Source: a virus. From it: a stretch of DNA of 64,000 nucleotides. The translations under genes were made by a program, and so were the position numbers. The notes under the pieces were generated by a model that was given only the letters and a program-made list of their open reading frames with translations, was not told the DNA's origin and made no database searches. The DNA is taken from the IMG/VR virus record IMGVR_UViG_3300027847_002504, positions 50,791 to 114,790 of that record; one strand, written 5' to 3'. Shown piece by piece: positions 16,651 to 49,197 of the stretch (positions are counted from its first letter, which is position 1; each line of letters opens with the position of its first letter).

Positions 16651-16728
16651 TGGGCAGGCTGAGCGGATTCGAACCGCCCCTACTTGAGCCACAATCAAGT
16701 GTGCTGAGCTACTAACACTACAGTCTGC
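16651..16728 (-). tRNA. tRNA-His(GUG)
   Basis: Acceptor CAGACTG/CAGCCTG with G-1 opposite C73, the histidine hallmark; anticodon arm CTTGA-TTGTGGC-TCAAG; T arm GGCGG-TTCGAAT-CCGCT; encoded CCA. Confidence 0.88.
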
Positions 16729-16838
16729 ATCTATTTTTCCCGCCCAGGCCTATTGCTCTCTTGTTTTCTGTCGGTGAGAGTTACCGGAGGGTTTCCACTG
16801 AGTCATGACTTCCGGTTTCGCCAACATTTTCAAAGTAT

Positions 16839-16958
16839 TTATGCATATTTTATAATCAGGATAGATGATGCATCCTTATTTTCCACAGGGGACAATTCTA
16901 TTTCCACCTTTGAAATAGGCTCATCCCATGCATTCTGTAAAAGTTCAAAAATTACAAA
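16839..16958 (-). pseudogene. Fragment of a GHKL ATPase, rIIA-like
   Basis: An open stretch without a start reads FELLQNAWDEPISKVEIEL then SPVENKDASSILIIKYA, ending in TAA. ELLQNAWDE matches the N box of GHKL ATPases such as phage rIIA proteins. A following frame (KYFENVGETGSHDS) could continue it after an indel. Only about 60-80 residues remain between tRNA-His and the synthetase-like gene. Confidence 0.4.
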
Positions 16959-18724: not shown

Positions 18725-18739
18725 TTGTTCTCATCGTTC

Positions 18740-18896
18740 TCCTTTCGTTCCGAAAAACTTTTATGTCGATGTGTTTGTTTCAATGTGCTTATAATACACC
18801 ACAAACGGTCGATGTCAAGTCATTTTAAGAAAGCTTCTCACAAAATCCTCCTTTTGGTGGGAAATAAAGGTTTCCTTTTCATTAATTAGAATACTA
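18740..18896. repeat. 157-bp direct repeat, copy 1
   Basis: Identical over 157 bases to 19638-19794. It carries a leftward sigma70-like promoter and lies just upstream of the 272-residue gene. Confidence 0.95.
18791..18818 (-). promoter_or_regulatory. Promoter in repeat copy 1
   Basis: TTGACA (18818-18813), 16-nt spacer, TATTAT (18796-18791), reading leftward into the 272-residue and GluRS-like genes. Confidence 0.7.
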
Positions 18897-19054
18897 AACG
18901 TTGACTCGATCTTATTCGAGTGCATTTCCATAAATGTCGATATGTCTGGCAATTTTAGATTAGATAGATCGATCAGAGCAAACATGCAACACCACTATTT
19001 TTATACATTTCGTTACCATAATATAACCTTTTAACAGTTGTGATTAAAAATGGT
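18897..19054. other. Noncoding stretch between repeat and folded RNA
   Basis: AT-rich, with no credible coding frame on either strand. It contains GATCTTATTCGAGTG-like short dyads only. Confidence 0.3.
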
Positions 19055-19152
19055 CTTGAAGGGTGGTGATTGGGCACCACTTGATCATGCTGAATCACGA
19101 TCCGCCACTTGGCTCACCTACATTGATATTCAGAATCGGGAGCCCCTTCAAG
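19055..19152 (-). ncRNA. Structured RNA candidate next to tRNA-Gly
   Basis: 98 nt closed by a perfect 9-bp helix CTTGAAGGG/CCCTTCAAG (19152-19144 with 19063-19055). Inside are helices GGCTC/GAGCC, GATC/GATC and TGGTG/CACCA, giving a multi-way junction. It begins 2 nt after the CCA of tRNA-Gly on the same strand, so it is probably co-transcribed and released by tRNA 3' processing. No coding frame and no T arm. Confidence 0.5.
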
Positions 19153-19154
19153 AG

Positions 19155-19230
19155 TGGAGCGGGTAGTCGGATTCGAACCGACAACAGACAGGTTGGAAAC
19201 CTATTGCTCTACCAATTGAACTATACCCGC
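19155..19230 (-). tRNA. tRNA-Gly(UCC)
   Basis: Canonical: GCGGGTA/TACCCGC, anticodon arm ATAGG-TTTCCAA-CCTGT, T arm GTCGG-TTCGAAT-CCGAC, encoded CCA. Confidence 0.93.
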
Positions 19231-19240
19231 AAGAAAAAAT

Positions 19241-19316
19241 TGGAGCGAACAGTGAGACTCGAACTCACATCATTTGGGTGGAAGCCAAAGGTAATTATCC
19301 TTTATACGATGTCCGC
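19241..19316 (-). tRNA. tRNA-Gly(UCC), second copy
   Basis: GCGGACA/TGTTCGC, anticodon arm TTTGG-CTTCCAC-CCAAA, T arm GTGAG-TTCGAGT-CTCAC, encoded CCA. Different sequence from the neighbouring tRNA-Gly, so not a recent duplicate. Confidence 0.88.
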
Positions 19317-25252: not shown

Positions 25253-26344
25253 ATGTCTCAACCCCGATTAGCGATCAAAAGTCTTACTCTTAAAAACTTT
25301 AAGTGTTACGAAGATTTTCACTTAAACTTCTCAAATGACGAGGGTATCTATCTACTGTTCGGCCTGTTCGGTCCCAACGGCAGTGGTAAAACTACGATTT
25401 TAGACGCTATAACTCTCGCGATGTCAACCTTCGCCGCATACGATTCTGATAGAATTGAGGTGTCAATGAGAAAATGCATTCGTAATTACAAACAGATGAC
25501 CGTGCCAGAGCAGGAGAAGGCTAACTTTTTGATTGAGGCGGAGATTAGTTCCGAGTTCGGAGATTATAGTATCGCCATCGACAAGAGTGGATACCTCCGT
25601 GAAAAGGGCCACCCGAAGGAGATTGCGGAGACGCTCATGCGTCAATCTTTCAGGACGAGATATGACGAAGAGCTACATACTTTTCAACTTCGACTTGAAC
25701 AATGGGAAGAATTCAAAGAACTCTTCGAATCCGTTACAGGATACAAGGTGGATAAAGTCGAGTGTCCGATGTCTCCGTTCACAGTTAATCTTAACAACGG
25801 AAACTTAAAAAATCGCGCCGCACAGATGGATGAACACGTTTTAGGATTGACGATAACTAAGCCCAATGAGACGATTTCTGACCGAGAGTGTAGTAAGGGG
25901 GAGAAAAAGATCATAAAGTGCTTCACAACGTTGTTAAACAAGGAAATAATGCCATCTGTGGTGTTGATCGATGACGTAGAGATGCACGTAGAGTTGAGTC
26001 GTCACATGGCTCTGGTTGGCTGCATTGAAAAATGTTTCCCAAATTGTCAAATAGTTTTTACGACGCACAGCCCGAAAATAATTCACGGTTTTGATATTGA
26101 TCGGATGATCGACTTGACGGTCAAAAGCAAGATCGGTCAGAAAACCTGGCGCAAGGAGTTGATTAGGATTTTGACGCAGAGTTTGTTTTTCCCAAATGAG
26201 TCTCGAAACGAGGAATGTATCGGAGATATGTTGAAGCAGTTGAGAACGGTGGAAGATCTCGATAAGGATTGGGCTAAGCACGTTTCTGCCGAGGCTATTT
26301 TTACAATTAATAACCAGTTACTCGAAAGGATCGAAAAAATATGA
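25253..26344 (+). CDS. AAA/SMC-like ATPase (RecF/OLD type)
   Basis: 363 residues. The N-terminus LTLKNFKCYEDFHLNF is the typical first strand of RecF/OLD/AAA_15 proteins. Walker A GPNGSGKTT (about 40-48), signature SKGEKK (214-219), Walker B VVLIDD (236-241) and the switch His in TTHSPK (H272) are all present. Only a short insert separates the lobes, with no coiled coil or TOPRIM nuclease. Such ATPases act in DNA repair, recombination or anti-defence. Its stop overlaps the next ATG by 4 nt (ATGA). Confidence 0.8.
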   Translation: MSQPRLAIKSLTLKNFKCYEDFHLNFSNDEGIYLLFGLFGPNGSGKTTILDAITLAMSTFAAYDSDRIEVSMRKCIRNYKQMTVPEQEKANFLIEAEISSEFGDYSIAIDKSGYLREKGHPKEIAETLMRQSFRTRYDEELHTFQLRLEQWEEFKELFESVTGYKVDKVECPMSPFTVNLNNGNLKNRAAQMDEHVLGLTITKPNETISDRECSKGEKKIIKCFTTLLNKEIMPSVVLIDDVEMHVELSRHMALVGCIEKCFPNCQIVFTTHSPKIIHGFDIDRMIDLTVKSKIGQKTWRKELIRILTQSLFFPNESRNEECIGDMLKQLRTVEDLDKDWAKHVSAEAIFTINNQLLERIEKI

Positions 26345-27132
26345 AAAAACCTGGGATATCAGTGTGTTTCGTAATTAGAAACGGGATGAGAAATGGTTAT
26401 CCGTTTTGGGAATCTCTAAATTCTTGTCTTGATTTCGCTGATGAAATCGTAATCAGCGAGGGGCACTCAGATGACGACACATACGTATACATGGAAAAAT
26501 TCAGATACCTTCACCCCGAAAAGGTTAAACTTTTTAGAACTAACTGGAAGAAGAGTGCTCACGGTGAAGTTATCGCTACCGTATCTTCAGAGGCGCTAAA
26601 AAGATGTTCACACGAATGGGTCTACTATCTTCAGGCGGACGAAATTATTCACGAAGACAACTGGCAGTTCATCAAAGGAATTTCTGAAGGTAAGCAGGGG
26701 AAAGTAAACTCCGTTAAATTCATGTTTAACCACTTTATTGGATCGTGGACACCCTTGCCAAAAGGTGCCGCAGCATACAGCGCCGCGATTCGGATGGTTC
26801 GGAACGTACCAAGCATTTCCCTCATGGGAGACGCTTGGACTTTTGAGGGGGGGATCGACCCAGTAGTCGCGCCGACCATGCCACCAAAACCAATTTATCA
26901 TCTCGGCTGGGTCTTCCCTAAAAATTGCGACGAAAAAAGTATTAGTCATGCGAAAATTTATTCTTCAATGCCAGCGTATCAAGAGCAAGCGGACAAGGCC
27001 AAGAAAAGACAGAGCGAAGGTTACGATGGAGAAGTTGGACTCCCAAAACCAGACAACTTTGACGACTTTCCAATTGGCGTAGAAAGACTTCTTGGTATGT
27101 TTGAATATGAACCACCGGATGAGGCCAAGTAA
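26341..27132 (+). CDS. Glycosyltransferase, GT2-like
   Basis: 263 residues. ISVCFVIRNGMRNGYPFWES, then DEIVISEGHSDDDTY and the acceptor-side YYLQADEIIHED (a DxD-like site) match a GT-A glycosyltransferase. It would transfer a sugar from a nucleotide-sugar donor in the cytoplasm. First of six to seven consecutive glycan genes with 1-4 nt overlaps. Confidence 0.75.
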   Translation: MKKPGISVCFVIRNGMRNGYPFWESLNSCLDFADEIVISEGHSDDDTYVYMEKFRYLHPEKVKLFRTNWKKSAHGEVIATVSSEALKRCSHEWVYYLQADEIIHEDNWQFIKGISEGKQGKVNSVKFMFNHFIGSWTPLPKGAAAYSAAIRMVRNVPSISLMGDAWTFEGGIDPVVAPTMPPKPIYHLGWVFPKNCDEKSISHAKIYSSMPAYQEQADKAKKRQSEGYDGEVGLPKPDNFDDFPIGVERLLGMFEYEPPDEAK

Positions 27133-27845
27133 TGCACACATTGCCGTATAGCGTTGTTATTTGCAGCTATAATAAATTAGAATCTTTAATGATAGTCCTT
27201 GATCGAATCCGTGAAAACGAGAGATGCCTTGAGATAATTTTGGTTGATGACAAATCAACAGACGAAACTATGGATTGGGCGAGAGATTCTAATTTTTTCA
27301 ACCATATCTACCAGCGTGGCCAATCTGGTCAATACAGATTGAATGGCAATAGAAATATTGGTATTTCTCTCGCGAAACACGAGCACATTGTTTTACTCGA
27401 TGCGGATTGCGCTCCAGAAAAGAAATACTTTGAGGGTCATGACCGTGTTTTCTGGCACCACCCAGGAGTTATTTCCGTTGGTATGACTGATCGATATAAT
27501 TCGAACGGAAAGTTCCTACAACAAAAAGATCCGAGAAGGAAAGATTTCAAAGATGGAAAACCATTGGTTGGTATCAATTGGTCCAAGGCTTATGGTGGTA
27601 ACGTTTGTTTCACAAAGGCTCTCTGGAATAAAATTGGTGGTTTTGACGAGGGCTTTGATGGAGCCTGGGGCTTCGAAGATCTCGATTTTTCTAAACGTGC
27701 AGCAAATATTAAGATACTATGCAAAAGTCATAAGTTTTCGACGACACGACATCTACATCATAAAGTTTCTGAATTAGCTAAGAAGGGTGGCAGCAACGGG
27801 AGAAATTCGAATCTGTTCCATAAAAAACATGGTATTAAATTTTGA
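27132..27845 (+). CDS. Family 2 glycosyltransferase
   Basis: 237 residues. YSVVICSYNKLESL, EIILVDDKSTDET, VLLDADCAPE (DxD metal site) and a C-terminal GFDEGFDGAWGFEDLDF block are the standard GT2 signature, as in galactosyltransferase-like enzymes. Its start shares a base with the previous stop (TAATG). Part of the glycan cassette. Confidence 0.88.
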   Translation: MHTLPYSVVICSYNKLESLMIVLDRIRENERCLEIILVDDKSTDETMDWARDSNFFNHIYQRGQSGQYRLNGNRNIGISLAKHEHIVLLDADCAPEKKYFEGHDRVFWHHPGVISVGMTDRYNSNGKFLQQKDPRRKDFKDGKPLVGINWSKAYGGNVCFTKALWNKIGGFDEGFDGAWGFEDLDFSKRAANIKILCKSHKFSTTRHLHHKVSELAKKGGSNGRNSNLFHKKHGIKF

Positions 27846-27857
27846 GGACTAATTATT

Positions 27858-28679
27858 ATGGTAGGGTTTTATGACTATTTCGATGATCATTTTGGTCCAT
27901 GGCTTAAAGGCTTTGAATCGTATTGCAAAAACAAGGGTCATATAGTTGAAATAAATGTTTGTCGAAAGAGGATTACAGAATCTGAGCTTACAAGCAAGAG
28001 GTATGATTTTGTAATGATATGGAATGGTGAAATGGAATCGACAAGCCATATCAAACACCTTTGTAGAAAATTGAACATTCCGCATCGGATTGTTGAGGTT
28101 GGATGGTTTCCGCAAAGATCGAACTATTTTGTTGACACTATGGGTATAAATGGGCATGGATCTTTGATGTCAGATGACTTATCATGGATAACGGATGCAC
28201 ATATTAAATCTTTAGAAGATTTCAAAAAAAAATACATTGGTGGTAAACCTTGGGTCGGTGGAGAGAATATACTATGCCCGCTACAGCTTGAGGGGGACAC
28301 AAATATTTTGAAGTTTTCCCCTTTCAAAAAGATGCAGGCGTTGATTAACTATGTTGAAAGGATATATCCAGAAGACAAAATAATTTTCAAGGGTCACCCG
28401 TTAGACCCGAATTCAATAAAGGTCACCTGTTCTGCCAAAAATAAAGTGACAAGCACTGGAAATTTTTTAGATATAGCAAGATATTCTAAGCGTGTGATAG
28501 GGATAAATTCAACATGCTTGCTTGAATCTTTAATGCTTGGCGCTCCCACGACATCTCTTGGGATAGGATATGTTAATTCTCACACCGATAGGGTTGACAA
28601 ATTACTTGCTGCCCTTATTGATAAGCAGATCCCGGTAGGGTCTGATAAATTAGATAAATGGTTCGGAACCATTCTATAG
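27858..28679 (+). CDS. Capsule polysaccharide-type glycosyltransferase (KpsC-like)
   Basis: 273 residues. IIFKGHPLDPNSIK, then RVIGINSTCLLESLMLGAP and TTSLGIG match the nucleotide-sugar binding region of KpsC/LipB-type capsule transferases, which extend Kdo-like chains. The N-terminal half (DFVMIWNGEMES) is the other Rossmann lobe. A related gene lies at 43617. The exact sugar is unknown. Confidence 0.7.
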   Translation: MVGFYDYFDDHFGPWLKGFESYCKNKGHIVEINVCRKRITESELTSKRYDFVMIWNGEMESTSHIKHLCRKLNIPHRIVEVGWFPQRSNYFVDTMGINGHGSLMSDDLSWITDAHIKSLEDFKKKYIGGKPWVGGENILCPLQLEGDTNILKFSPFKKMQALINYVERIYPEDKIIFKGHPLDPNSIKVTCSAKNKVTSTGNFLDIARYSKRVIGINSTCLLESLMLGAPTTSLGIGYVNSHTDRVDKLLAALIDKQIPVGSDKLDKWFGTIL

Positions 28680-28687
28680 AGGTTAAA

Positions 28688-30061
28688 ATGCATCTTAAAA
28701 ATAGAGAAGGGGTAGAAAAGTATTTTATAAAAAAAGACTGGCTTGAGAATAGGAAAGATGGAATTTCCGCAATGATCAGGATAAAGAACGAAGAAGAGTT
28801 TATACTACCAAGTATTCAGTCTGTACTTGGGTTTTTCGATGAGATAATCGTTACACTAAATGGCTCGGAAGATAATACAGAAAATATTATAAGGAATATT
28901 AACTCTGATAAAATAAAGATATATCAATATCCTTTCAAGATGCATCATAATGGCCCCGGTCATAGAGATATTCCAGAAGACTCCATACATGATCTTGCGT
29001 ACTATTATAATTGGTCCTTATCCCTCACGAGTAGATCCTTTGTTTGTAAGTGGGATGGTGATATGATAGCCACGCCAAATATGGTCGCCGATCTTTCTAA
29101 CTACAAAAAGTTTGGGAAGACGTTTTTCCATGGAATAAATCTTAGTGGGGATCACATCTCTCATTTTAGTCCAGACTTGGTAGCGACATTCGAGCCAAGG
29201 GTTTTCAAGGTTTGCCCGGAGTCTTATTATATACAGGGTGATTTCTGCGAAGTCTTAAATAACTATTCTTCTTCTGAGAGTAAAATTGACAAAAGATGCT
29301 ACTTACATTTTAAGAATTGCAAGAGGATTGAAACTGCCACACAAGTCTGGCCAGATAACTGGATGGATGTCCCCCATTTCAAGAGACTTAATGAACGGCG
29401 ACAGAAGGGAAAAGTCTATAACGAGGTATACCCAGAACCTTTGAAAAATAAGATCATTAGGGATGCTATAGGGGAAGCAAAAAAGGTTGAGGATCTAAAA
29501 AGTCAGAAACAAGTCATGGGTGATATGGCAGATATATTTTTCTCGCTTAAGAAAAAAGACATCGTTGGAGATATGTGTGAGATTGGGGTGAAGGCTGGGA
29601 AGACGACTGTTTTTATCTCTAACATGATGATGTCACTTTTCCCAAATTGGGAATTGTATTCATGTGATCCACTGAATGATAAATTCGCCTCTGGAGGATT
29701 AAATACAGACGGGGCTAATAATATTGGTAAATTTAGAGAAAAATTTTGCGAGCACATCTCCAAGCTATCCAACCATAAACATTTTTTCATCCCCTCATGC
29801 GAGCTTAAGAAAGAAATAGAAGGGCGAAAATTTAATTTCGTGTATATAGATGGAGAACACAGCGAGGCGGCTGTGAATTCTGATTTTGGAATGATGTTCC
29901 CGTATGTTGTTAAGGGCGGAGTGATCGCTATTGACGATTACAAAAATCAGGCTTGGCCTGGGGTAACAAAAGCGTACAGAAGCATACTTGATAAATATAA
30001 GGGTAAAATAAGTATCATCATTAGTGACGACAAAACTTCTTTCTTGGAGAAATTGGTATGA
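28688..30061 (+). CDS. Bifunctional glycosyltransferase/methyltransferase
   Basis: About 457 residues from the ATG at 28688 (AGAGGT ribosome binding site; an earlier ATG at 28658 lies inside the previous gene). Residues about 15-225 are a GT2-like domain (MIRIKNEEEFILPSIQSVL, DEIIVTLNGSEDNTENI, KWDGDMIAT). Residues about 265-455 are a class I methyltransferase (MCEIGVKAGKTT, NFVYIDGEHSEAAVNSD), similar to methyltransferases of O-antigen loci. One protein could thus add a sugar and methylate it. Confidence 0.75.
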   Translation: MHLKNREGVEKYFIKKDWLENRKDGISAMIRIKNEEEFILPSIQSVLGFFDEIIVTLNGSEDNTENIIRNINSDKIKIYQYPFKMHHNGPGHRDIPEDSIHDLAYYYNWSLSLTSRSFVCKWDGDMIATPNMVADLSNYKKFGKTFFHGINLSGDHISHFSPDLVATFEPRVFKVCPESYYIQGDFCEVLNNYSSSESKIDKRCYLHFKNCKRIETATQVWPDNWMDVPHFKRLNERRQKGKVYNEVYPEPLKNKIIRDAIGEAKKVEDLKSQKQVMGDMADIFFSLKKKDIVGDMCEIGVKAGKTTVFISNMMMSLFPNWELYSCDPLNDKFASGGLNTDGANNIGKFREKFCEHISKLSNHKHFFIPSCELKKEIEGRKFNFVYIDGEHSEAAVNSDFGMMFPYVVKGGVIAIDDYKNQAWPGVTKAYRSILDKYKGKISIIISDDKTSFLEKLV

Positions 30062-31293
30062 AGAAATTGATTGTATTAACATATGGGATGGGGAGGATTG
30101 GGTCTTCATACATGATGAAGGTTTTGAGGAAATCAGGAGCGTTCGTGAAGGACACGAAGACTGAAGACAAATTCAATCCAGGCGGATATTTTGAGAGTGA
30201 GCCCCACATAAATAAGATAAAGAAGATATACAAGAAATTATTTGTTTGCGAAAACCCGCCACCAATCGAGAGTGTTATAGAGAGGGGTGAAGAGAATATT
30301 AAGGACTATAAGAAATTCCTAAATAACCAGTATAAAAACAAAGATGTCGTAGCGACTAAATCATATAGAACATACGACCTTCCATTCTTGAAAGAGTTAA
30401 AAGATTCAGGTGTAGATGTAAGAGTCATCGTTCTCCATAGAAACATTGACAACCAAGCCGCTTCTTCGGCTAAGATGAACAAGTTGAGCCCGAAGCACTA
30501 TAAGGGTAGGATAGAAAAATGGAACGGGTTTAGAGATAAAATGGTTGAACACGTAAGCAATCAGGGTATTGATTGTCTAAATGTTAATTTTGAAGATGTC
30601 ACATCTTTCCCTAAAGAAGAATGGAATACAATATCAAAGTTTCTTGATATGAAAATAGATATTGACAGTGCAGCTATTATTACGAAGAGAAAGCCGATTG
30701 TTTTTACTGAAATGCATTCTCACGAATGCATTTCAAAGCTCGTCAACGACTTCGAGTTCAAATCAGTACTTGATATCGGATGCGGTAGACATGGGAACCA
30801 TAAGGCGGCTTTTAAGTCGTGTAGAAAGGACGTTACCTCTATAGATTATGTCCATGGAAAACACGCCGATATAGTTGGGGACTATAGTGATCATGAATTC
30901 GACAAGAAGTTCGATTGTATATGGTGTTCTCATGTTCTCGAACACCAATTAAGTCCTAATGAATTTTTGAAGAAGATACACAGAGACCTTACCGACGATG
31001 GGGTCTTAGCCATAACAGTACCTCCATTAAAACACGAGATCGTTGGCGGACACGTATCTTTGTGGAACGCTGGGTTACTCCTTATGCATCTCATCCTGGC
31101 TGGATTCGACTGTTCATTAGCGAGGGTAAAAAAGTATGGATATAATATAAGCGTAATAGTAAGGAAGAGACCCGTAGATTTGAGCGGTTTGAAGTTTGGA
31201 AATGAAGATATTCAGATTTTAAAGAGGTATCTACCTGTTGGAGTTACGCCACATGGTTTTAATGGAGATATTCACGAGAGAAATTGGAAATGA
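30058..31293 (+). CDS. Sulfotransferase-methyltransferase fusion
   Basis: 411 residues. The N-terminal half has the PAPS 5'-phosphosulfate loop GMGRIGSSYM and the 3'-phosphate motif RNIDNQAASSAK of sulfotransferases. The C-terminal half (from about residue 225) has SVLDIGCGRHGN (SAM motif I), FDCIWCSHVLEH and a terminal DDGVLAITVPP, a class I methyltransferase. Overlaps the previous stop (ATGA) and the next start. It would sulfate and methylate a glycan. Confidence 0.78.
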   Translation: MKKLIVLTYGMGRIGSSYMMKVLRKSGAFVKDTKTEDKFNPGGYFESEPHINKIKKIYKKLFVCENPPPIESVIERGEENIKDYKKFLNNQYKNKDVVATKSYRTYDLPFLKELKDSGVDVRVIVLHRNIDNQAASSAKMNKLSPKHYKGRIEKWNGFRDKMVEHVSNQGIDCLNVNFEDVTSFPKEEWNTISKFLDMKIDIDSAAIITKRKPIVFTEMHSHECISKLVNDFEFKSVLDIGCGRHGNHKAAFKSCRKDVTSIDYVHGKHADIVGDYSDHEFDKKFDCIWCSHVLEHQLSPNEFLKKIHRDLTDDGVLAITVPPLKHEIVGGHVSLWNAGLLLMHLILAGFDCSLARVKKYGYNISVIVRKRPVDLSGLKFGNEDIQILKRYLPVGVTPHGFNGDIHERNWK

Positions 31294-32048
31294 GAAATCA
31301 AGCATTAATAGTTTTTGACAGTTTAAGATGGGACACGTTCAGAGACGCTAACTTGCCGACAATAAAATCGTTCCCATTTGAAAAGGCATTTACACATGGG
31401 ACATATACTCTACCGGCTCATACCTCATTCTTCATTGGAAAATTACCCCATACACGTAGTGGATCTTTCGATACTTGTGCGAGATCGGGTAGGAAGACAG
31501 ATGGTCGCCAGTGGTGGAGATTGAATAACCCAGAGTCCCCCGGAGATGCTCATGTTCAACTTGACGGGAGAAATATTGTTCATGGATTCAATATGAAGGG
31601 GTATGATACTGTTGGAACTGGTGCTGTTGGATGGTTCAATATAAATAAACCAGCGCACATTTCGGCAATTGACGATTTTAAGAAGTTCGGGTTCTTTGGA
31701 GAGTTCACGGTTGCAAAGAAACAGATTGACTATGTTCTTGAAGAATTACCTACAGATAAGAAGTTTTTCTTATTTATGAATTTTGGAGAAACTCATCACA
31801 GTTATAGGATACGAGAAAATGATGAGCCAATTAATTGGGGTGATAAACGGTGTCGATCTGCTCAGATCAGATGTATAGAGTATCTTGATAAAATGATCGA
31901 AAGATTACTTCAATCTCCGAAGATGAAAAACACAGATATTATTCTATGTTCAGACCACGGGGATTGTATGGGAGAGGATGGCCTCTGGGGGCACTCATTC
32001 TTCCATGAAAAAGTCATTGAAGTACCCATAGTAGAAGCTCATATCTAA
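31290..32048 (+). CDS. Sulfatase/alkaline-phosphatase superfamily enzyme
   Basis: About 252 residues from the ATG at 31290. LIVFDSLRWDT binds metal, TYTLPAHTSF supplies the nucleophile region with Thr where type I sulfatases have Cys or Ser, and CSDHGDCMGEDGLWGHS is the second metal site. With Thr as nucleophile it may be a phosphotransferase (phosphoethanolamine- or phosphoglycerol-type) rather than a hydrolase. Last gene of the cassette, overlapping the sulfotransferase stop by 4 nt. Confidence 0.75.
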   Translation: MRNQALIVFDSLRWDTFRDANLPTIKSFPFEKAFTHGTYTLPAHTSFFIGKLPHTRSGSFDTCARSGRKTDGRQWWRLNNPESPGDAHVQLDGRNIVHGFNMKGYDTVGTGAVGWFNINKPAHISAIDDFKKFGFFGEFTVAKKQIDYVLEELPTDKKFFLFMNFGETHHSYRIRENDEPINWGDKRCRSAQIRCIEYLDKMIERLLQSPKMKNTDIILCSDHGDCMGEDGLWGHSFFHEKVIEVPIVEAHI

Positions 32049-33430: not shown

Positions 33431-35182
33431 ATGGAAAAGAAAAATAAAGGGAACAACGTTAATTTCTTATCTAACGCTGTCACCGAAATAAGAAAAAAGA
33501 ATAATCTTGTTATAGAAGAAGGCGAGACTGAAGAAGGTCTAATAGATGTTATATCTTTTTGTGAAAGGGACGACATGATGGCCCTACCTAAAAACAACCT
33601 TGTTTTATTTTTAAGTCAGAGAGTTATTCTCAAATCATTCTATTACGGAACTCCTGGTAATGAAAAAACAGAGTTTACGGATGAAGAATGGAACTGGCTA
33701 TACGCCAAGAGCCAAGATTCGGCCATTGAAAAGTTAAAAAGAAAAGTTGATGGGGTCAATCCCGGAGAACCTCACAATTTCAATTTTATGGAACTAAATC
33801 TCGCCTGCGGTAGACGTGCGAGCAAGACCCTTCTCGCATCAGTTATTTGCGCTTACGAGTCGTACAAGTTAATCAAGCTTGGCGATCCATATAAGCATTA
33901 TAACATCCCATACGATGAAGAGATAGCAATATTGAATGTGGCAAACTCCCAGAAACAGGGTGGAAGATTGTTTTCACAAGTTAAGGCGAGGATAAGAAAT
34001 GCTCCATTTTTTAAGGGGAGAGTTCAGGGAAAGGGAGACTCGTCATCTGAGATAAGATTGTATACAGATATCGATCTTAGAAAAAAAGACGATCCAGATA
34101 TGAATATCGCTGTTGAGGGATCTATTGTTTTGATATGCGGACATAGTAACCCGGACAGTTTGCGTGGTTATTCAGCTATTTGTATCCTGTTTGATGAGCT
34201 ACAGTACTACACTGAACACCCAGTTGTTTCAGGAAGAGACTTCTATAACGCTTTGATTCCGTCCATGGCAAAGTTTGACACATATGGTGGAGGAAAGTTG
34301 GTGGAGTTATCCACGACTGGTATTCCGTCTGGAATTTTCCATTCAATACATAAGCAGGGGCAGAGTATTGATAAGCAATTTGACAGAATTCTTGGGTTTC
34401 ACCTTGCAACATGGGATATTAATGATGAATTCCCATATGATGGCGACTATTTGACAATGTTGAGAAGTAAAGACCCAGAGGCTTTCAATATTGAGTTTGG
34501 CGCAATGTGGTCTACAATGGGCTCTGTACATAAGTACTTCCCTGAAGACAAGGTTATGGGTGCAGTTGACCCTAATCTTAGTATGGAGGACCAAAGAGAC
34601 CGTGGCTGTGAATACTTTATGCATATTGACCCGGCCTCAAAACACGACACTTACGCTTGTGCTGTTGTTAAAAGAGTGAGATATGTCACATCGTCTGGGG
34701 AAAAGAGGTTTAAGATAGTATTAGCCTTCCACGCGGTCTGGAAACCACAGCCAGGTGTCGGTCTTGATATTGTAAAGTTGGATGATGAAATTCTTGAAAT
34801 AGCAAGAATATTTAAGCCTATATCAGTAACATATGACACGTGGAATAGTGTTCATTCCATAAGCTACCTGAGTAATAAGGGGTTTTACGCCAAGCAGTTA
34901 CCATTTGGAAGAGGTCCAAAGGCTAATTACTACAAAAACCTATTCGATCTCATGGACAGGAGAGAATTGGTTCTTTATGGAAGCGATTTGGTTGTTGGTG
35001 AAATGCTTAATATTAAGTATAGACCAACACAGAGGGGGGTCCAGATTTTTCCTGACCCACAGGCTGATATAACCACGGATGATCTTCTTGATTGTGTCGC
35101 TGGTGCTGCCTGGATGGCTATCGGTAGAGTTCTTAAAAATCCTCTCCCGCAGGGAGTTGTTGCTAATATACACTTTACATAA
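33431..35182 (+). CDS. terL: Terminase large subunit
   Basis: 583 residues. GRRASKT (about 127-133) is the Walker A variant, CILFDE (251-256) is Walker B, and the C-terminal nuclease has FMHIDPASKHDT (D400), VTYDTWN (D469) and ITTDDLLD (D551). This packages DNA into the prohead through the portal and cuts the concatemer. It follows the hypothetical gene with 2 nt between and lies in the same long transcript. The family is that of large-phage terminases; the packaging strategy is not visible. Confidence 0.93.
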   Translation: MEKKNKGNNVNFLSNAVTEIRKKNNLVIEEGETEEGLIDVISFCERDDMMALPKNNLVLFLSQRVILKSFYYGTPGNEKTEFTDEEWNWLYAKSQDSAIEKLKRKVDGVNPGEPHNFNFMELNLACGRRASKTLLASVICAYESYKLIKLGDPYKHYNIPYDEEIAILNVANSQKQGGRLFSQVKARIRNAPFFKGRVQGKGDSSSEIRLYTDIDLRKKDDPDMNIAVEGSIVLICGHSNPDSLRGYSAICILFDELQYYTEHPVVSGRDFYNALIPSMAKFDTYGGGKLVELSTTGIPSGIFHSIHKQGQSIDKQFDRILGFHLATWDINDEFPYDGDYLTMLRSKDPEAFNIEFGAMWSTMGSVHKYFPEDKVMGAVDPNLSMEDQRDRGCEYFMHIDPASKHDTYACAVVKRVRYVTSSGEKRFKIVLAFHAVWKPQPGVGLDIVKLDDEILEIARIFKPISVTYDTWNSVHSISYLSNKGFYAKQLPFGRGPKANYYKNLFDLMDRRELVLYGSDLVVGEMLNIKYRPTQRGVQIFPDPQADITTDDLLDCVAGAAWMAIGRVLKNPLPQGVVANIHFT

Positions 35183-41967: not shown

Positions 41968-43590
41968 ATGGCACTTTCAAATTGGTACGCAGACTTAGCG
42001 CTACCGGGAAGCAATGCTTCTTCGGTGAATCAGGAGGGAAATTACCCAGACGATTTTCAATGGAATAATAAAAACCCCATTGATGATGTGTCATTCTATT
42101 CTTCTTGTGATGAGGTAGACGCTTTCAATAATCCAGAAAAGGGAGAGTTGAAAAACGTGATGATCAATGGCCCGGTAGTTATGGCAACCGGATCAAGATA
42201 TAAGGAGAATATTTTCCCCGCTATTCTTGGTGATCAAATAAGCAGTTCAAGTTCTTCCAGCAGCTGTTCTTCCAGTAGCTCGTCGAATAGTAGTTCAAGC
42301 TGTTCTTGTTCTTGTTCTTCATCATCAAGATCTGGTAGCTTTAGCTCATCAAGTCTTTCCTCAAGTTGTAGCTCATCAAGTTGTAGTTGTTCATGTAGTT
42401 CCTCAAGTAGTAGTTGTTCCTCAAGCTGTTCCTCAAGCTGTTCCAGCTGGGAAAGCTCATTATGTAGTTGCTCTTCAAGCTGTTCAAGTTGGGAAAGCTC
42501 ATCACTAAGTGGTGTAGGAGAATTTTATTGGGAGGCAAAAGCCCAGTTCGAAGCTCCAGAGTCTGGCGGATCTGTTCTTACATTGACAGAATTCAATAAT
42601 ACCGGGCTGTATTCTGGAACCGCTCCAGCTTCATGGGTAAGAGACCCACTAACAATGTTGAATAAAGATGTGACTAAGTACAATTTTTTCACAGGCGTTT
42701 ATTTTGACAGTTTCTCTGTCACATTTAGAAAGAAATATTCTGGCGAAGGAACGCCACCGCTTCCAACAGAGTCTTTTGCCAGAGCAGGATTCGAGGTTAC
42801 CTATAATGCTATTGAAGATATTGATGCTACATCCATTGTTAGGATAAAGAGTGCAAAACTTACAGGTGCTCCAGTAACTACCACGTGGAATTTTTTATCG
42901 TGTTGTCCCCCACCCGACGCCTATTGCTTTTACATAAAAAGGCAGGGCAATGACACTGTTCCGACACCTCCATCAACACATGCCGCCTGTACCGTTTGCA
43001 TATCAAGTAGCTCATCGAGTAACTCTTGTAGCTCGTCAAGTAGCTCAAGTAGCTCAAGTTGTTCGAGTTCATGTTCAAGTTGGGAATCAAGCAGTAGTTC
43101 GTTTAGCAAATCGAGCGAGTCTATAAGCTCCGTCCAGGCCATTGGTCAATGTTCACCTGGAGAATCGTGCGGAACAATGACTATCAAATTTAAGACGTAT
43201 ACGATTCCAGACAGATTGACCGTTACAGATAATACCGGAAGTATATTGGATACGGGATCAATATCTACTTATCAGAATTACAACACCTATATTGTTGAGG
43301 CGACTTGTCCTGTTGAAGTTTGCGTTCAAGCACCATTAGCTGGCACAGCATGGATTATTGATATCACAGGGTGCGACTTTACATTGAATCAGTCTGGCGG
43401 TCAAGTTAGTTCCCTTTGTTGGACAAATTCAAGCAGTTCGTCAAGCAGCTGTTCAAGTTGGGTGTCAAGTAGTTGTTCATCAGAAAGTATTAGTTCTTCG
43501 TCGAGCTATTCGCTCTCGTCATCATCAATGAGTTTCTCAAGCAGCAGTAGTAGCTGTTCAAGTAGCTGTTCAAGTAGTAGCAGTATATAA
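41968..43590 (+). CDS. Ser/Cys-rich virion-type protein
   Basis: 540 residues. Three tracts of Ser with interspersed Cys (about residues 91-180, 346-385 and 487-540) separate folded segments: an N-terminal region, a middle beta-rich domain (FYWEAKAQFEAPESGGS) and a second beta domain (MTIKFKTYTIPDRL). The tracts use all six Ser codons mixed with TGT/TGC, so they are not simple DNA repeats. They look like surface linkers or glycosylation targets. The gene that follows is a capsule-type glycosyltransferase. Confidence 0.75.
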   Translation: MALSNWYADLALPGSNASSVNQEGNYPDDFQWNNKNPIDDVSFYSSCDEVDAFNNPEKGELKNVMINGPVVMATGSRYKENIFPAILGDQISSSSSSSSCSSSSSSNSSSSCSCSCSSSSRSGSFSSSSLSSSCSSSSCSCSCSSSSSSCSSSCSSSCSSWESSLCSCSSSCSSWESSSLSGVGEFYWEAKAQFEAPESGGSVLTLTEFNNTGLYSGTAPASWVRDPLTMLNKDVTKYNFFTGVYFDSFSVTFRKKYSGEGTPPLPTESFARAGFEVTYNAIEDIDATSIVRIKSAKLTGAPVTTTWNFLSCCPPPDAYCFYIKRQGNDTVPTPPSTHAACTVCISSSSSSNSCSSSSSSSSSSCSSSCSSWESSSSSFSKSSESISSVQAIGQCSPGESCGTMTIKFKTYTIPDRLTVTDNTGSILDTGSISTYQNYNTYIVEATCPVEVCVQAPLAGTAWIIDITGCDFTLNQSGGQVSSLCWTNSSSSSSSCSSWVSSSCSSESISSSSSYSLSSSSMSFSSSSSSCSSSCSSSSSI

Positions 43591-43616: not shown

Positions 43617-44543
43617 ATGAGAGTAGCATGTTTATTTTTCCCAGAAAACCACGATCAGTTAAAACATCAAATAGAACATGTTTTAACTGATAAAGAAATA
43701 TCTGTCCGATTTTCTTGCGTTAAAAATGAGTATATAAATCTTATAAAAGAATATGACAATATTATTACCTGGGGTTTGAAAGTTCCAAAAGAATGGTACG
43801 ACAAACACGGCAAAAACTTTTTGTTTATCGAGAACGCATTATTCAATCAGGGGAGTGGAATATTCTTAGATACGAACGGGTGGTTTTCGGACTCTACAAT
43901 ATGTACAGATAAGGAGTATTTACAATCCGCCTCGTCATTTGAGATAGATAAGTTCTATGAAATTGCGGAAGAAAGGTTTGGTTGGGTTGATTATTTTCAA
44001 GAATACGACCCGGAAGGTCCGATTCTTGTAGTTTTACAAAGAGAGAATGACGCTCCTGTAAAATATTGTTATGACGATTACGGTAAAGGGAGTAGTATCT
44101 TATCATTGTTGTCAAGAGTAAAGAAACAGTTCCCAGACAAGGAAATTATTGTTAGACCACACCCAAGGCACCGATCCGACTGGGAAGAAGTTAGAGAAGA
44201 GGGGGTTAAAATATTTGGCGATAGATGGGAGTTAGATTTGGAAAAATCTGTATATAGATCTATATCAAGATGCTCAAAGGTTATTACAATTAATTCAACA
44301 GTGGCAACTGAGGCGCTATTTAGTGGTATTCCTGTGGCGACCATCGGCAGATCGGCATATACGGGCTCAGGGGCTACTTACGAAGGTAAATTGTCAGGGT
44401 TTGACGACTTCACCCCAGATAGGGAAGTGGTAAAGAACTATCTTGGGGCGATAATGAGGCATCAATTAATGATAGACAGTAGTTGTGAGGACATTTTGAA
44501 TAACGAATGTTTTAGTCGTTGGATGTCCAACGGCCTTAGTTAA
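43617..44543 (+). CDS. Capsule polysaccharide-type glycosyltransferase
   Basis: 308 residues. EIIVRPHPRHRSDWEE and RCSKVITINSTVATEALF, then GIPVATIGRSAYTG, match the nucleotide-sugar region of KpsC-like transferases, as in the gene at 27858. The first half has Rossmann-like ILVVLQRENDAPVK. It lies directly downstream of the Ser/Cys-rich protein, suggesting that this protein is its acceptor. Confidence 0.72.
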   Translation: MRVACLFFPENHDQLKHQIEHVLTDKEISVRFSCVKNEYINLIKEYDNIITWGLKVPKEWYDKHGKNFLFIENALFNQGSGIFLDTNGWFSDSTICTDKEYLQSASSFEIDKFYEIAEERFGWVDYFQEYDPEGPILVVLQRENDAPVKYCYDDYGKGSSILSLLSRVKKQFPDKEIIVRPHPRHRSDWEEVREEGVKIFGDRWELDLEKSVYRSISRCSKVITINSTVATEALFSGIPVATIGRSAYTGSGATYEGKLSGFDDFTPDREVVKNYLGAIMRHQLMIDSSCEDILNNECFSRWMSNGLS

Positions 44544-44612: not shown

Positions 44613-45053
44613 ATGGCTATAGCAGCAGTATGGAGAGAGTATAACCCATCGACAGGAAAGTTAATGGGAACAGTCACCTCTTTGTCATTTGGAAATGTCA
44701 ACATAGGCGAATTCAGCCCGATCAGAGTTTTTGATCTGTATGTCCCAGACGTATCGTTTCTTTCTAATGTGACTCTTCAAATAACAGCCTCCCCACAAAT
44801 CACAGTAAATGACAGCCCTGTAGATATCACTTCTGACGGGACAGCGGGGAATGGAAATTTCGGAATAGAACTTGACGATAATTTTGTCTCAAGAAGCACA
44901 CTGTCGAGATTCTTCGCGGGTCTTGACCAACCAGTAACGATAGGGACAAGGGCTGACAATGTGTCAAAGTATATATTCATGAACTCAAGAATGTCCATGG
45001 ACGCCGCAGAAGCGGGGTCTGTGACGTATCAGGTAAGCCTTGATCACTCATAA
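44613..45053 (+). CDS. Hypothetical virion-type protein
   Basis: About 146 residues from the ATG at 44613 with GGAGGGAG upstream; an upstream TTG at 44568 is less likely. Beta-rich (MGTVTSLSFGNVNIGEF, NVTLQITASPQITVND), with the look of a tail or fibre domain. The stop overlaps the next ATG (TAATG). Confidence 0.6.
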   Translation: MAIAAVWREYNPSTGKLMGTVTSLSFGNVNIGEFSPIRVFDLYVPDVSFLSNVTLQITASPQITVNDSPVDITSDGTAGNGNFGIELDDNFVSRSTLSRFFAGLDQPVTIGTRADNVSKYIFMNSRMSMDAAEAGSVTYQVSLDHS

Positions 45054-46921
45054 TGAAACCACAGAATGACAGAAGAAACTTCCTAACACCAATAAAAACA
45101 AACATCAGAGACTTTAAGAGGTTCTCTGATGATTATGTCCATTATTTGTTTAGAGATAAAGACGGTAACATTTCAGTCTATAGAACTGATGAGGTGTTGG
45201 ACACCACTGTATCTTTCCCAGCCTCGACAGACCGTCTTCCAAGAGACTATGTGGGGGAGAACCTGTCCCTCGTAGAACTCGCCTCAGATAACGTCTCAGT
45301 TTTGGGCACAGGAAACAATCCAAACAGAGTTTTTGATGGACAATTTGACTGTGGCTATTACACATATCTTGATACCACATGGAAAGCTATCGATAGTGAC
45401 GCATGTGTAAATGGAATCTTTCCATCATTCTCTAAGTTAGTGAAGGTTGACACCGATGATATTTTCATGGCCTCTCAAGTTGGAGGCAACGTTGTTATTT
45501 ATGAAGTTACAACAACGTCGGTAACCAAGAAAGCAGAATTGACAGACTATATCCTTGTTGATGCCAAGTCGATGGTGAATGATGTTATACTATTTGTTGT
45601 AAAAAGAGATATAGAATACCCGTATGAAATTATAGAAGAAGATTTTGGGGAAACGATACAACACTATGCAGGGAGTCCAGAAGCAATTCTATGTCTGGCC
45701 TCTGGCTCTTATTCTACTTTCAGGTCGTTCTGTACCGAAAGATCTATCTTCCCTTCATTATGCTCATTAGAGAACCCGACAGATGATAACTCATTTTTTA
45801 TTTACGACAGCTATGTATATGCGATATCTGTAAGCTATGACCCTGTAAACTCAATATTTGTCCCGGTTGTAGGGTTTGGTAAAGACAATGATGAGTGGAG
45901 GTTCTTTGCATCGTCAACACCATTTGGTGCTGTTTCTGACTTGATATATCCTCAAATAAGCGTTGACAACAGAGGTGTTGTTTACGCCTCCGCCCAAAAG
46001 GGCGAAGATATATACATGACATACTTCAGCAAGACTGAAAATCAATGGAAAAATTTTGACACAGCGATCACGATGAACTTAGATGACGCGATTGTGTCAA
46101 GCAGTTCTTCAAGTTCGTCATCATGTAGTTCGTCATCTTGCAATAACTCATCATCCTCATCGTGCTCCTCATCGTGTTCCTCATCGTGCAGTAGTAGTTC
46201 TTGCTCATGTTCCTCTTCTTGGACTTCGGACATTAATGCTTACAATTCGTATATGCTGGCTCATTGGGACTTTGATGAGACTACTGGGTCGATTCATTCC
46301 GATGATGTGCTACCATATAATCATTTGATAACAAAAGACGCATCAACAGTAAAAACAGATCCTGGAAAGAAGACTAACGCAACGACACCAGAGGCGGATG
46401 TGACGTTTGGTTTGGTGACTGGAATAAGCGGGGTCCATGCGAGTTCTGTTATAATGAGTTTCTGGTATTACCCAGACCCACTAAATGTATCTCCTGGGAA
46501 AATAATTATAAGAAAGACAAATGAGTACGAAGTTTCTCACTTTTTAGACACTGGAAGTGCAAAACTTACTTTTCAGGCTGATGATAGATTGATAACGTCT
46601 GGGGCGATGTCACTTGCAAATTGGCATCACATTTTATGTATTGCTGATTCTGGTATAAATAGGATCATAATATATGTCGATGGGGTTCAGTCGGGTATAG
46701 AGTCGTTTTCCAGCACAATACAGGACTTTTCCAATGACACTGAGGTATGGATAAGTGTAGATGACGATTCGGGCCTTGATGAATTTGCTTTTTGGGGAGA
46801 CATTCCACTTAGTAGTGTTGCCGAAGCAGACAGTATGGCTGACTATATTTATAATGGCGATCATGGAACATTTTATGATGGCGGAACTTGGACCCAAAGC
46901 AGTTCGAGCAGTTCGAGTTAG
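45053..46921 (+). CDS. LamG-domain fibre-like protein with Ser/Cys linker
   Basis: 622 residues. A beta-propeller- or fibre-like N-terminal half is followed by a Ser/Cys tract (bases about 46098-46224), then a LamG/concanavalin-type jelly roll (LAHWDFDETTGSIHSDD, NWHHILCIADSGINRIIIYVDG) and a short Ser tail. LamG domains bind carbohydrates. Likely a receptor-binding or appendage protein. Part of the late operon, overlapping the previous stop. Confidence 0.75.
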   Translation: MKPQNDRRNFLTPIKTNIRDFKRFSDDYVHYLFRDKDGNISVYRTDEVLDTTVSFPASTDRLPRDYVGENLSLVELASDNVSVLGTGNNPNRVFDGQFDCGYYTYLDTTWKAIDSDACVNGIFPSFSKLVKVDTDDIFMASQVGGNVVIYEVTTTSVTKKAELTDYILVDAKSMVNDVILFVVKRDIEYPYEIIEEDFGETIQHYAGSPEAILCLASGSYSTFRSFCTERSIFPSLCSLENPTDDNSFFIYDSYVYAISVSYDPVNSIFVPVVGFGKDNDEWRFFASSTPFGAVSDLIYPQISVDNRGVVYASAQKGEDIYMTYFSKTENQWKNFDTAITMNLDDAIVSSSSSSSSSCSSSSCNNSSSSSCSSSCSSSCSSSSCSCSSSWTSDINAYNSYMLAHWDFDETTGSIHSDDVLPYNHLITKDASTVKTDPGKKTNATTPEADVTFGLVTGISGVHASSVIMSFWYYPDPLNVSPGKIIIRKTNEYEVSHFLDTGSAKLTFQADDRLITSGAMSLANWHHILCIADSGINRIIIYVDGVQSGIESFSSTIQDFSNDTEVWISVDDDSGLDEFAFWGDIPLSSVAEADSMADYIYNGDHGTFYDGGTWTQSSSSSSS

Positions 46922-46929
46922 GGGTAATA

Positions 46930-49197
46930 ATGAAGAAAGTAAAACTAAACAAGCATTTTGGACATATTGTAGGGGTGGATTCTGGCGATGTGGACTTGAC
47001 ATTGAATAGTGAGGGGACCATTTATAGATCGAACCCAAGAAAATATATTGATGTTTCGTCATGGGCGAAATCTAGTATTACGCCACCTTATTATTCAGAC
47101 AGTACCATATTAATTCTGGAAACAGATTTGCCAGATGTCCCAATTGGGTATTCTTATGCCCATATTGAGTATGTTCTCACATATAATCAGGATTTTGTTC
47201 TGGATGGAGAGTTGACCGCCGATGTTTTGTATAAGTTTGAATCTATAGATATAGATGGCTGGGCAATAGAATATGATAAGATATACTCCCTGCCTGGAGA
47301 GGGGTATACATCATGGCATACTACAAGGCTATTAAAGTCTAAATTTATAGCAACAGATTTGACAATTGATTTCACTCAGGACTTGTACTTATTCCATAGA
47401 TCGAGGGGCTGCACAGTATCTGGCGGTGATATAACACTGTCTAACGAGTATTCTAGTTATTCTGGCAAAAAAATAAACCTGTATGCAAGCACCTTTTCTA
47501 ATACTGGAGAAAACAGAACGTCACCATTATCCGTAGATCTTCTACCGGAAATAAGCGATTACTTTAACACCTGGCCACCGTCTTCTAATATCCATTATGA
47601 GATTTATATAGGATCATCTGGAGACGTTTCCGATTATACTGGAAGTTTGGTTACACCATTGATGTACAGAGATTCTGGAGATTCTCCGACTGGGTTCACT
47701 TATTTTGACGGATCGTCTTTTGTAGGGTTTGGTGAGGACGGACCACTCGGCTCCTTGTACGGAAATAAAATGGTTTTTATTTCACCATCAATAGATACAA
47801 AAACGGCCCTGTTCGCCGTTTACAGGGCTTATTGGGATGGTGGGAACACGACTTGGATAGCAAAAGTTCTACAGTCGTCTGATTTTATAAAGACTCCAGG
47901 TAGATCTTTCAACACGTCATCATTTATTGAGATATCGGCGGGAACTTTCCCAGACAGGTATGATGCACATGTGATTGTCGGAACAAGCCCGGTATTATCA
48001 GAATATTTTGACGATGGATTATTGAATGATTTTACAAAGTTGAATCCATTTTTTGACGGTCTGATTGATTATGCCAACACCGCCGAGACTCTTGATAGAA
48101 GTAAGTTTGATCTATATGAAAATGGAAGTATTCACCCACCTGGAAATTTTGGGTTTGATGATTCAAAGGATATTAAGATAACATTCACGTCTGGTGAAAA
48201 CTATGATGGGGATGAAAAAGTACATATATTTTGGAGATTCGAGCATGGTACAGTAGCGAGTAGTTCGAGTAGTTGCTCAAGCTGGTTGAGTAGTTCAAGC
48301 TGTTCTTGCTCAAGCTCCTCAAGCAGCAGTAGTAGCTGTTCGTGTTCGAGTTGGCTTAGCCCATCAAGTCCTTCATATTCAAGCTATGTTAGTACCAGCA
48401 CAAGCTCTGTAAGTAGCGCGAGTTCGAGTAGCTCAACGAATTTTTGTACCAACATTACAGACCAGGATTCAAAATTAGTGGCGTATTGGGATATGGAGGA
48501 AACGACTGGTAGGAGGTTCGACTCGGTAGGGTCGAATGATTTAATAGACAATGAGACCATTGACGCAGTTTCCGGCAAAGAGGGCAACGCATCCTTGTTT
48601 AGTGAAAGCGCAGGCCGTCGCGGGCCAGGGCCAACTGGTAGAGCTGCGGCGAGTCTGATGGCACCGGACTCCATTGATTTATCCGCCACCAATAAGGTTG
48701 CTATTTCAATGTGGGTAAAACAACATTACAATTCTGGTTCTGGTGGATCTTCAGAGGGTAAACTTAGCAGTTACCACTTTACATTTAATGGGAGTTCTTC
48801 ACAGCATTTTAGAGTTAGTTGGCTGATTAGACAATCAGATTTGACTTATTCATCAATGGGTAATCATGAGGTTACCGAAGACGTTTTTCATCATATCTTT
48901 GGTGTGGCAGACGGTAGTAATATACATCTTTATATAGATGGCGTTTTGAAGGAGAGCAAATCTTATGATGGGACTATAAGTGAGAGTTCGTGCCCATTCC
49001 TTTTACATGGGAATTGGTCAAATTTTGATGTCACAATGGATGAGGTGGCAGTTTGGAAAGAGCCCACTCTGTCAAATGAGCGAGCCTGTGCAGCAATGGC
49101 CAGATCTTTGTATAATAACGGGTCCGGTAAATTTTTGAACTCTGGAACATGGACATCATGTTCAAGTAGTTGCTCAAGTAGTTCAAGTTCAAGTTAG
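46930..49197 (+). CDS. LamG-domain fibre-like protein, second copy
   Basis: About 755 residues from the ATG at 46930 with GGGG upstream. An N-terminal beta-rich region precedes a Ser/Cys tract (bases about 48256-48435), a LamG domain (LVAYWDMEETTGRRFDSVG, VFHHIFGVADGSNIHLYIDG) and a Ser/Cys tail. The architecture repeats that of the gene before it, pointing to duplication of the linker plus LamG module. Confidence 0.75.
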   Translation: MKKVKLNKHFGHIVGVDSGDVDLTLNSEGTIYRSNPRKYIDVSSWAKSSITPPYYSDSTILILETDLPDVPIGYSYAHIEYVLTYNQDFVLDGELTADVLYKFESIDIDGWAIEYDKIYSLPGEGYTSWHTTRLLKSKFIATDLTIDFTQDLYLFHRSRGCTVSGGDITLSNEYSSYSGKKINLYASTFSNTGENRTSPLSVDLLPEISDYFNTWPPSSNIHYEIYIGSSGDVSDYTGSLVTPLMYRDSGDSPTGFTYFDGSSFVGFGEDGPLGSLYGNKMVFISPSIDTKTALFAVYRAYWDGGNTTWIAKVLQSSDFIKTPGRSFNTSSFIEISAGTFPDRYDAHVIVGTSPVLSEYFDDGLLNDFTKLNPFFDGLIDYANTAETLDRSKFDLYENGSIHPPGNFGFDDSKDIKITFTSGENYDGDEKVHIFWRFEHGTVASSSSSCSSWLSSSSCSCSSSSSSSSSCSCSSWLSPSSPSYSSYVSTSTSSVSSASSSSSTNFCTNITDQDSKLVAYWDMEETTGRRFDSVGSNDLIDNETIDAVSGKEGNASLFSESAGRRGPGPTGRAAASLMAPDSIDLSATNKVAISMWVKQHYNSGSGGSSEGKLSSYHFTFNGSSSQHFRVSWLIRQSDLTYSSMGNHEVTEDVFHHIFGVADGSNIHLYIDGVLKESKSYDGTISESSCPFLLHGNWSNFDVTMDEVAVWKEPTLSNERACAAMARSLYNNGSGKFLNSGTWTSCSSSCSSSSSSS

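Follow-up and report, generated by a model that had tools for sequence, protein, structure and literature searches.

A six-gene phage cassette predicted to build, O-methylate and probably sulfate a glycan

Gene layout and predicted activities of the cassette

The window analysed here is the whole of a 64,000-nucleotide (nt) stretch of viral DNA, positions 50,791-114,790 of the 114,790-bp virus record IMGVR_UViG_3300027847_002504 (IMG/VR). At 26341-32048 it carries six genes (g1 to g6) that a preliminary description read as a phage cassette for glycan assembly and sulfation. A check of the open reading frames (ORFs) confirmed all six, co-directional on the plus strand and as compactly arranged as had been described. 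They are flanked by an AAA/SMC-type ATPase gene on the left and, on the right, by an uncharacterised gene and then the gene for the large terminase (TerL; 33431-35182, PHROG terminase match with an E-value of 1e-24). The cassette thus lies ahead of TerL on the late strand. Its genes and the adjoining ATPase gene are listed below (GT2, glycosyltransferase family 2; Kdo, 3-deoxy-D-manno-oct-2-ulosonic acid).

25253..26344, + strand: AAA/SMC-type ATPase, overlapping g1 by 4 nt
26341..27132, + strand: g1, probable GT2-fold glycosyltransferase of 263 amino acids, QADE replacing DXD
27132..27845, + strand: g2, GT2 glycosyltransferase with a DAD motif and a Glyco_transf_7C-type ED motif
27858..28679, + strand: g3, KpsC-like transferase (Capsule_synth), predicted to be of the retaining beta-Kdo transferase type
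28688..30061, + strand: g4, GT2 transferase (DGD motif) fused to a sugar O-methyltransferase of the Methyltransf_24/TylF type
30058..31293, + strand: g5, sulfotransferase-like P-loop domain fused to a class I methyltransferase
31290..32048, + strand: g6, STM4013-like alkaline-phosphatase-superfamily enzyme with a Thr nucleophile (T40, counted from ATG 31290) and a single-metal-type site

All six genes had been described as overlapping. This holds for g1/g2 (1 nt), g4/g5 (4 nt) and g5/g6 (4 nt, ATGA), but gaps of 12 and 8 nt separate g2/g3 and g3/g4, given a g4 start at ATG 28688. We prefer this start because AGAGG sits just upstream. The start of g6 is most likely ATG 31290, not TTG 31284. The ATPase gene is probably co-transcribed with the cassette; scans for promoters and terminators gave a signal no greater than in shuffled sequence. 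No segment of g1 to g6 attains a hydropathy of 1.6, and all six enzymes look soluble. The set had also been called complete, which it is not: genes for sugar-nucleotide synthesis were not seen within it, and further glycosyltransferase, methyltransferase, KpsC-like and sulfotransferase-like genes, along with one for adenosine 5'-phosphosulfate (APS) kinase, are found in other parts of the genome.

The domains originally assigned to the six proteins were largely right, with Pfam models backing g2, g3, g4, the C-terminal half of g5, and g6. The g2 protein matches PF00535 (7e-18; 65.5 bits against a cut-off of 23.3) and PF02709 (1e-9), and its match to chondroitin synthase in the PDB has an E-value of 5e-12. 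The N-terminal domain of g4 (g4-N) also passes the PF00535 cut-off (2e-7, 31.4 bits). Its C-terminal domain (g4-C) matches PF13578 (1e-11; 45.8 bits against 26.3), and the nearest solved relatives, both weak, are the methyltransferase entry 3ssm (E 0.002) and CalS11 (E 0.06). The g1 protein scores 20.4 bits with PF00535, under the cut-off (E 2e-5 in a one-genome search), and its nearest solved structure is a very weak match to SunS (E 0.3).

The g3 protein exceeds the PF05159 cut-off of 20 (23.6 bits, 4e-5), and a second KpsC-like protein encoded in the late region, at 43617-44543, matches the same model with 52 bits (9.5e-14). A profile (A8) of seven KpsC-like proteins, from phages and from a bacterial locus described below (L012), gave PDB matches limited to WbbB and KpsC entries. 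Both are known beta-Kdo transferases; the PDB names WbbB only as an N-acetylglucosaminyl transferase. Because of these matches, and because Kdo genes lie beside a KpsC-like gene in the phage LR756500 (see below), a Kdo-type sugar is our best guess for the sugar that g3 would add. The CMP-Kdo (cytidine monophosphate-Kdo) would in this phage be supplied by a Gram-negative host.

Glycosylation of phage DNA by phage transferases is well known, and some virus-encoded glycosyltransferases act on modified DNA bases (Pyle et al., 2024, cited in an excerpt of PMC12619734). That the transferases here glycosylate modified bases of the phage's own DNA is nevertheless very improbable. No homologue of thymidylate synthase or hydroxymethylase (PF00303) was identified on the 114,790-bp record, which is possibly incomplete. 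The KpsC-like, sugar O-methyltransferase and sulfotransferase partners, and homologues in polysaccharide loci, better fit surface carbohydrate chemistry.

The g6 protein matches PF00884 (2e-10) and aligns nearly end to end with NF038075, the model for STM4013/SEN3800 hydrolases (1.6e-32), with which it shares active-site residues. Its score of 113 bits is well under the curated cut-off of 250. In alignments of g6 relatives (A4 and A5), D10, T40, D222 and H223 are invariant, and an alignment of 25 diverse relatives has Thr as nucleophile throughout, with His three to four residues on. The motif T-L-P-A-H stands where sulfatases with a formylglycine nucleophile have C/S-x-P/A-x-R. A formylglycine (type I) sulfatase is ruled out by the invariant Thr, which is never Cys or Ser, and an interpretation of g6 as a sulfatase does not survive this observation. 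The structural model of g6 (predicted local distance difference test, pLDDT, of 88) resembles PDB folds of sulfatases, a phosphonate monoester hydrolase, the phosphoethanolamine transferase EptC, and YejM. The g6 protein is thus an alkaline-phosphatase-superfamily enzyme with a Thr nucleophile; it looks soluble and, from its active site, would carry out phosphoryl chemistry.

Proposed sulfate supply

The C-terminal half of g5 (g5-C) matches the methyltransferase model PF08241 (3e-10). The N-terminal half (g5-N) has intact sulfotransferase motifs: the 5'-phosphosulfate-binding (5'-PSB) P-loop GMGRIGSS, and the R-x7-S of the 3'-PSB site, in which R128 and S136 are invariant in an alignment of this domain (A7). 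Its matches to PF13469 (5e-4 to 8e-6) reach 20.8-22.3 bits, under the cut-off of 27. Tyrosylprotein sulfotransferases are the top PDB folds for the g5-N model, and kinases match too; the alignment behind this weak model (pLDDT 65) contained sulfotransferases. No g5 homologue was identified in five genomes searched.

The phage encodes an APS kinase on the minus strand, 411-923 bp to the left of the window (L007:9867-10379), with a PF01583 match of 3e-54 and 172.2 bits for TIGR00455 against a curated cut-off of 138.7. APS kinase and sulfotransferase genes occur together in three phages, namely this one, a 175-kb record (G011) and LR756500, whereas the phage of L092 (below), which lacks the sulfotransferase domain, has no APS kinase. 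The sample is consistent but small, and several of its records are possibly fragments; three APS kinase matches in records marked UNVERIFIED (L118-L120) were not counted, and a Salmonella match (H30) is a bacterial record. No member of the CysD or 3'-phosphoadenosine 5'-phosphosulfate (PAPS) reductase families was identified on the record, so the phage does not extend the assimilation pathway. No papers on phage sulfotransferases, or on cysC together with a sulfotransferase, were found in a partial literature search.

These observations bear on a reading in which the APS kinase is auxiliary to sulfur assimilation by the host, there is no working sulfotransferase, and the glycan is methylated and unsulfated. 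The sub-threshold score of g5-N would suit it, as would the occurrence of the core cassette without a sulfotransferase domain in a second phage (L092), whose glycan would presumably be of this kind. We consider it improbable, given the intact P-loop and R-x7-S of g5-N, the pairing of kinase and sulfotransferases in three phages, and the absence of PAPS reductase and CysD homologues. It overlaps with the other readings considered here.

A further sulfotransferase-like gene of this phage (L007 1331-2017), recognised by eye and without a Pfam match, lies beside a Methyltransf_24 gene and has a paralogue at L006:17007-17711. An HldE-type heptose kinase is encoded at L007:5410-6429 (TIGR02198, 1e-96).

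Relatives of the cassette in bacteria and other phages

In a metagenome-assembled genome of Thermodesulfobacteriota (L012), the g4 fusion has a homologue over its full length (40% identity), which directly precedes a g6 homologue (46%). The pair follows genes for a Wzm-like permease and a Wzt-like ATPase and adjoins KpsC-like genes. By gene context, then, the nearest cellular relatives lie in surface-polysaccharide loci. Homologues of g3, g4 and g6 are shared with such Wzm/Wzt O-antigen or capsule loci; the phage genes differ in lying beside virion genes without a recognised transporter.

A second viral contig of 99 kb, from an unrelated phage, carries near one end (L092) the row glycosyltransferase, GT2, KpsC-like, Methyltransf_24, Methyltransf_11, GT2 and g6, a cluster with five of the cassette's domain blocks. 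Identities to the window are 41% for g3, 40% for g4-N, 27% for g4-C, 31% for g5-C and 41% for g6; g2 is matched weakly (24%) and g1 not at all. The fusions of the window are split into separate genes there, the order is partly changed, and the Methyltransf_11 gene has no attached sulfotransferase domain. When nearly all of this contig was compared with the window phage, nothing matched apart from the cassette genes and a cross-match between KpsC-like genes, and neither TerL nor portal of one matched the other. The cassette is a transferable module of surface-polysaccharide origin, as judged from these comparisons of sequence and gene context.

Looser sets of GT2, Sulfotransfer_2 and KpsC-like genes, some with Methyltransf_24, were identified in marine T4-like contigs (L008 and L009) and in L093, where the set precedes head-tail genes. 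G011, whose TerL and portal are 27% and 34% identical to those of the window phage, has an island with a NeuB homologue, Sulfotransfer_2, UDP-galactopyranose mutase, several transferases and APS kinase. This island of about 17 kb (L116, G011:108000-127500) also includes a cytidylyltransferase-like gene, an epimerase and three radical-SAM-like (S-adenosylmethionine) genes. The 462-kb phage LR756500 encodes APS kinase, KdsA, KdsB, a KdsD/KpsF-like protein, GT2, sulfotransferase, methyltransferases and a KpsC-like protein; KdsA and KdsB pass their model cut-offs. Its island (LR756500.1) resembles the cassette in combining KpsC-like, GT2, sulfotransferase, methyltransferase and APS kinase genes within 24 kb, but differs in its own Kdo synthesis, its gene order and the lack of g6 in the 49 kb examined. 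The Kdo synthesis genes (KdsD/KpsF-like, KdsB and KdsA) stand beside the KpsC-like transferase and sulfotransferase genes at L125:23900-31232.

The preliminary description took such a set to be rare in phages, a view that these several phage contigs do not support. Among catalogued phages almost nothing similar was found, save LR756500. Single-sequence scans of viral records with TerL, g5, g3 and g1 gave no relatives, and L092 and L093 were reached only by alignment-based scans.

Many relatives of g6 were found in a scan of 84,980 genomes. They form two sets, one in STM401x clusters and the other outside them. In the tree, g6 groups with homologues from L012, L013 and L014 and the phage copy from L092 (Shimodaira-Hasegawa-like approximate likelihood-ratio test, SH-aLRT, 94), apart from the STM401x proteins. 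The STM4011, STM4012 and STM4014 neighbours, which include the radical-SAM and ATP-grasp partners, were not identified around g6 or its nearest relatives. An STM401x-type role is ruled out by this gene context and the separate tree group. The commonest neighbours of non-STM401x relatives are sulfotransferases, GT2 enzymes, ATP-binding cassette (ABC) transporter parts and epimerases. At 15 of 62 such loci there is a gene for a sulfotransferase or an APS kinase, with 12 changes on the tree. We do not take this count to prove that g6 acts in sulfation, as it has no background rate and the L092 cassette lacks a sulfotransferase. In three related Tenacibaculum and Aquimarina loci (L063, L067 and L080), an APS kinase gene lies about 11.1 kb in, beside an STM401x cluster. 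A phage contig with a g6 homologue (L002) encodes a glycosyltransferase (4537-6990) into which, judged by eye, an intein seems to be inserted.

The polysaccharide loci suggest the chief alternative for the target of the glycan, which we regard as possible though rather unlikely. The cassette would rebuild, methylate or sulfate the O-antigen or capsule of the host through a Wzm/Wzt pathway, and the changed receptor would block superinfection or binding to debris. Beyond the closest homologues, a Kdo-using enzyme suits a Gram-negative envelope, and enzymes of the KpsC/WbbB type work on lipid-linked capsule and O-antigen. Against this, we recognised no Gtr-type membrane component, phosphoglycosyltransferase or transporter genes in the phage, and no flippase or lipid-carrier transferase among the phage genes looked at, and the six proteins look soluble. 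A late-strand site directly before TerL would be odd for receptor change, and candidate acceptors occur together with a KpsC-like gene in the late region.

Candidate acceptors and the target of the glycan

Enzymes that look soluble, without a recognised flippase or lipid-carrier transferase, favour an acceptor in the cytoplasm, for instance a virion protein. Of the 138 proteins predicted on the whole record, four contain 28-31 Ser in a 40-residue window (the next highest value is 14), and three of the four are encoded in the late region of the window.

41968..43590, + strand: late protein with long poly-Ser/Cys tracts (residues 92-181, 346-385 and 486-539), candidate acceptor
43617..44543, + strand: second KpsC-like (Capsule_synth) transferase, between the first two late poly-Ser genes
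45053..46921, + strand: late poly-Ser/Cys protein, LamG-like by eye, with a C-terminal Ser tail, candidate acceptor
46888..49197, + strand: late Laminin_G_3 protein (PF13385, 7.6e-15) with a poly-Ser tract and a Ser-rich C-terminal tail, candidate acceptor

The Ser tracts of the three late proteins use AGY as well as TCN codons, so it is the amino-acid sequence whose repetition is preserved. The fourth protein (L005:10081-13239, left arm) is encoded a few kb from GT2 and methyltransferase genes on the same strand. The poly-Ser proteins are plausible glycan acceptors. As the L092 contig encodes no poly-Ser protein, such tracts cannot be the general acceptor.

We predict that a mobile module derived from surface-polysaccharide synthesis attaches a short glycan, O-methylated and probably sulfated, to virion proteins of the phage itself, a reading to which we give an even chance. 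The position of the cassette before TerL on the late strand speaks for it, as does that of the related L093 set beside head-tail genes. The host would supply sugar nucleotides, CMP-Kdo among them, and APS, which the phage kinase (assigned to its family by a curated model) would convert to PAPS. The g3 and 43617-44543 proteins may add a beta-linked Kdo-type sugar, and g1, g2 and g4-N may lengthen the chain, with donors, order and acceptor as predicted here; families support all of these but g1. Methyl caps would be placed on sugar hydroxyls by g4-C and g5-C, as their families suggest, and g5-N would move sulfate from PAPS, for which a weak family match, the motifs and the kinase argue. Judged by its active site, g6 could hydrolyse or transfer a phosphoryl group on the glycan or an activated precursor. 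The acceptors would be late proteins, most plausibly the poly-Ser/Cys proteins of tail or fibre type, and the benefit may be particle shielding, adsorption or stability.

Several points weigh against this reading. The nearest cellular relatives of the cassette are, by gene context, in surface-polysaccharide loci, and g5-N falls below its family cut-off and has a weak model. The poly-Ser tracts can be mere linkers, and the L092 contig shows none. The originally proposed function, to build, methylate and probably sulfate a glycan, is supported and has been strengthened by the APS kinase, the near-syntenic L092 cassette and the bacterial g4/g6 pair, and the virion and the host surface stay the two candidate targets.

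Other genes of the phage include 13 tRNA genes in the window (6823-19316) and a poly(A) polymerase/CCA-adding-type enzyme (L006:5728-7323), a Tpt1/KptA RNA 2'-phosphotransferase (L006:7429-8115) and an RNA ligase (L006:17746-18402). Together these look like an RNA repair set. The window also encodes a phosphoribosyl pyrophosphate (PRPP) synthetase (1776-2762), an 811-amino-acid protein of the late region (37687-40122) with matches to PHROG tRNA nucleotidyltransferase families in its C-terminal part, and a portal protein with a C-terminal HNH-endonuclease-like stretch (57410-59692), 22 kb from the terminase gene. A peptide deformylase is encoded at L007:2645-3271.

Virion glycosylation has been described for chloroviruses and some mycobacteriophages (excerpts of PMC9614988 and PMC12619734), and these are the closest described systems. 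In the chlorovirus PBCV-1, A064R combines two rhamnosyltransferase domains with a methyltransferase and acts with A061L in the capsid N-glycan machinery (PMC9614988, in excerpt). The likeness lies in multi-domain proteins, encoded by a virus, that unite transferase and methyltransferase functions to assemble a capsid glycan and O-methylate it. PBCV-1 differs in infecting a eukaryote and, as described in that excerpt, in its glycosyltransferase families; sulfotransferase, APS kinase and KpsC-like enzymes are not mentioned there. In mycobacteriophages, glycans occur on subunits of the capsid and tail tube, at their C-termini (Freeman et al., 2023, cited in an excerpt of PMC12619734); in the phage studied here, two poly-Ser proteins have a Ser tail at that end. 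Sulfation, methylation and Kdo-type enzymes are not mentioned in that excerpt, and the acceptor here is only a candidate. A limited literature search turned up no phage-made sulfated glycan.

A broader proposal, which we put forward tentatively and think doubtful, extends to several unrelated lineages of phages: transferable modules would give their virions a coat of glycans that are sulfated and O-methylated and contain Kdo. Here the glycans would be attached to mucin-like poly-Ser/Cys tracts in tail or fibre proteins, and the purpose of viral cysC would be to make PAPS for this sulfation, not for assimilation. Related sets in unrelated phages suggest that decorated particles are possibly commoner than thought. 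If the proposal is true, the particles of such phages would bear a coat that is charged and capped with methyl groups, which would affect their adsorption, their stability and their recognition by the immune system, and viral APS kinase genes would be read differently. Concrete acceptor candidates and a recognisable module make the targets of many phage glycosyltransferases a testable question.

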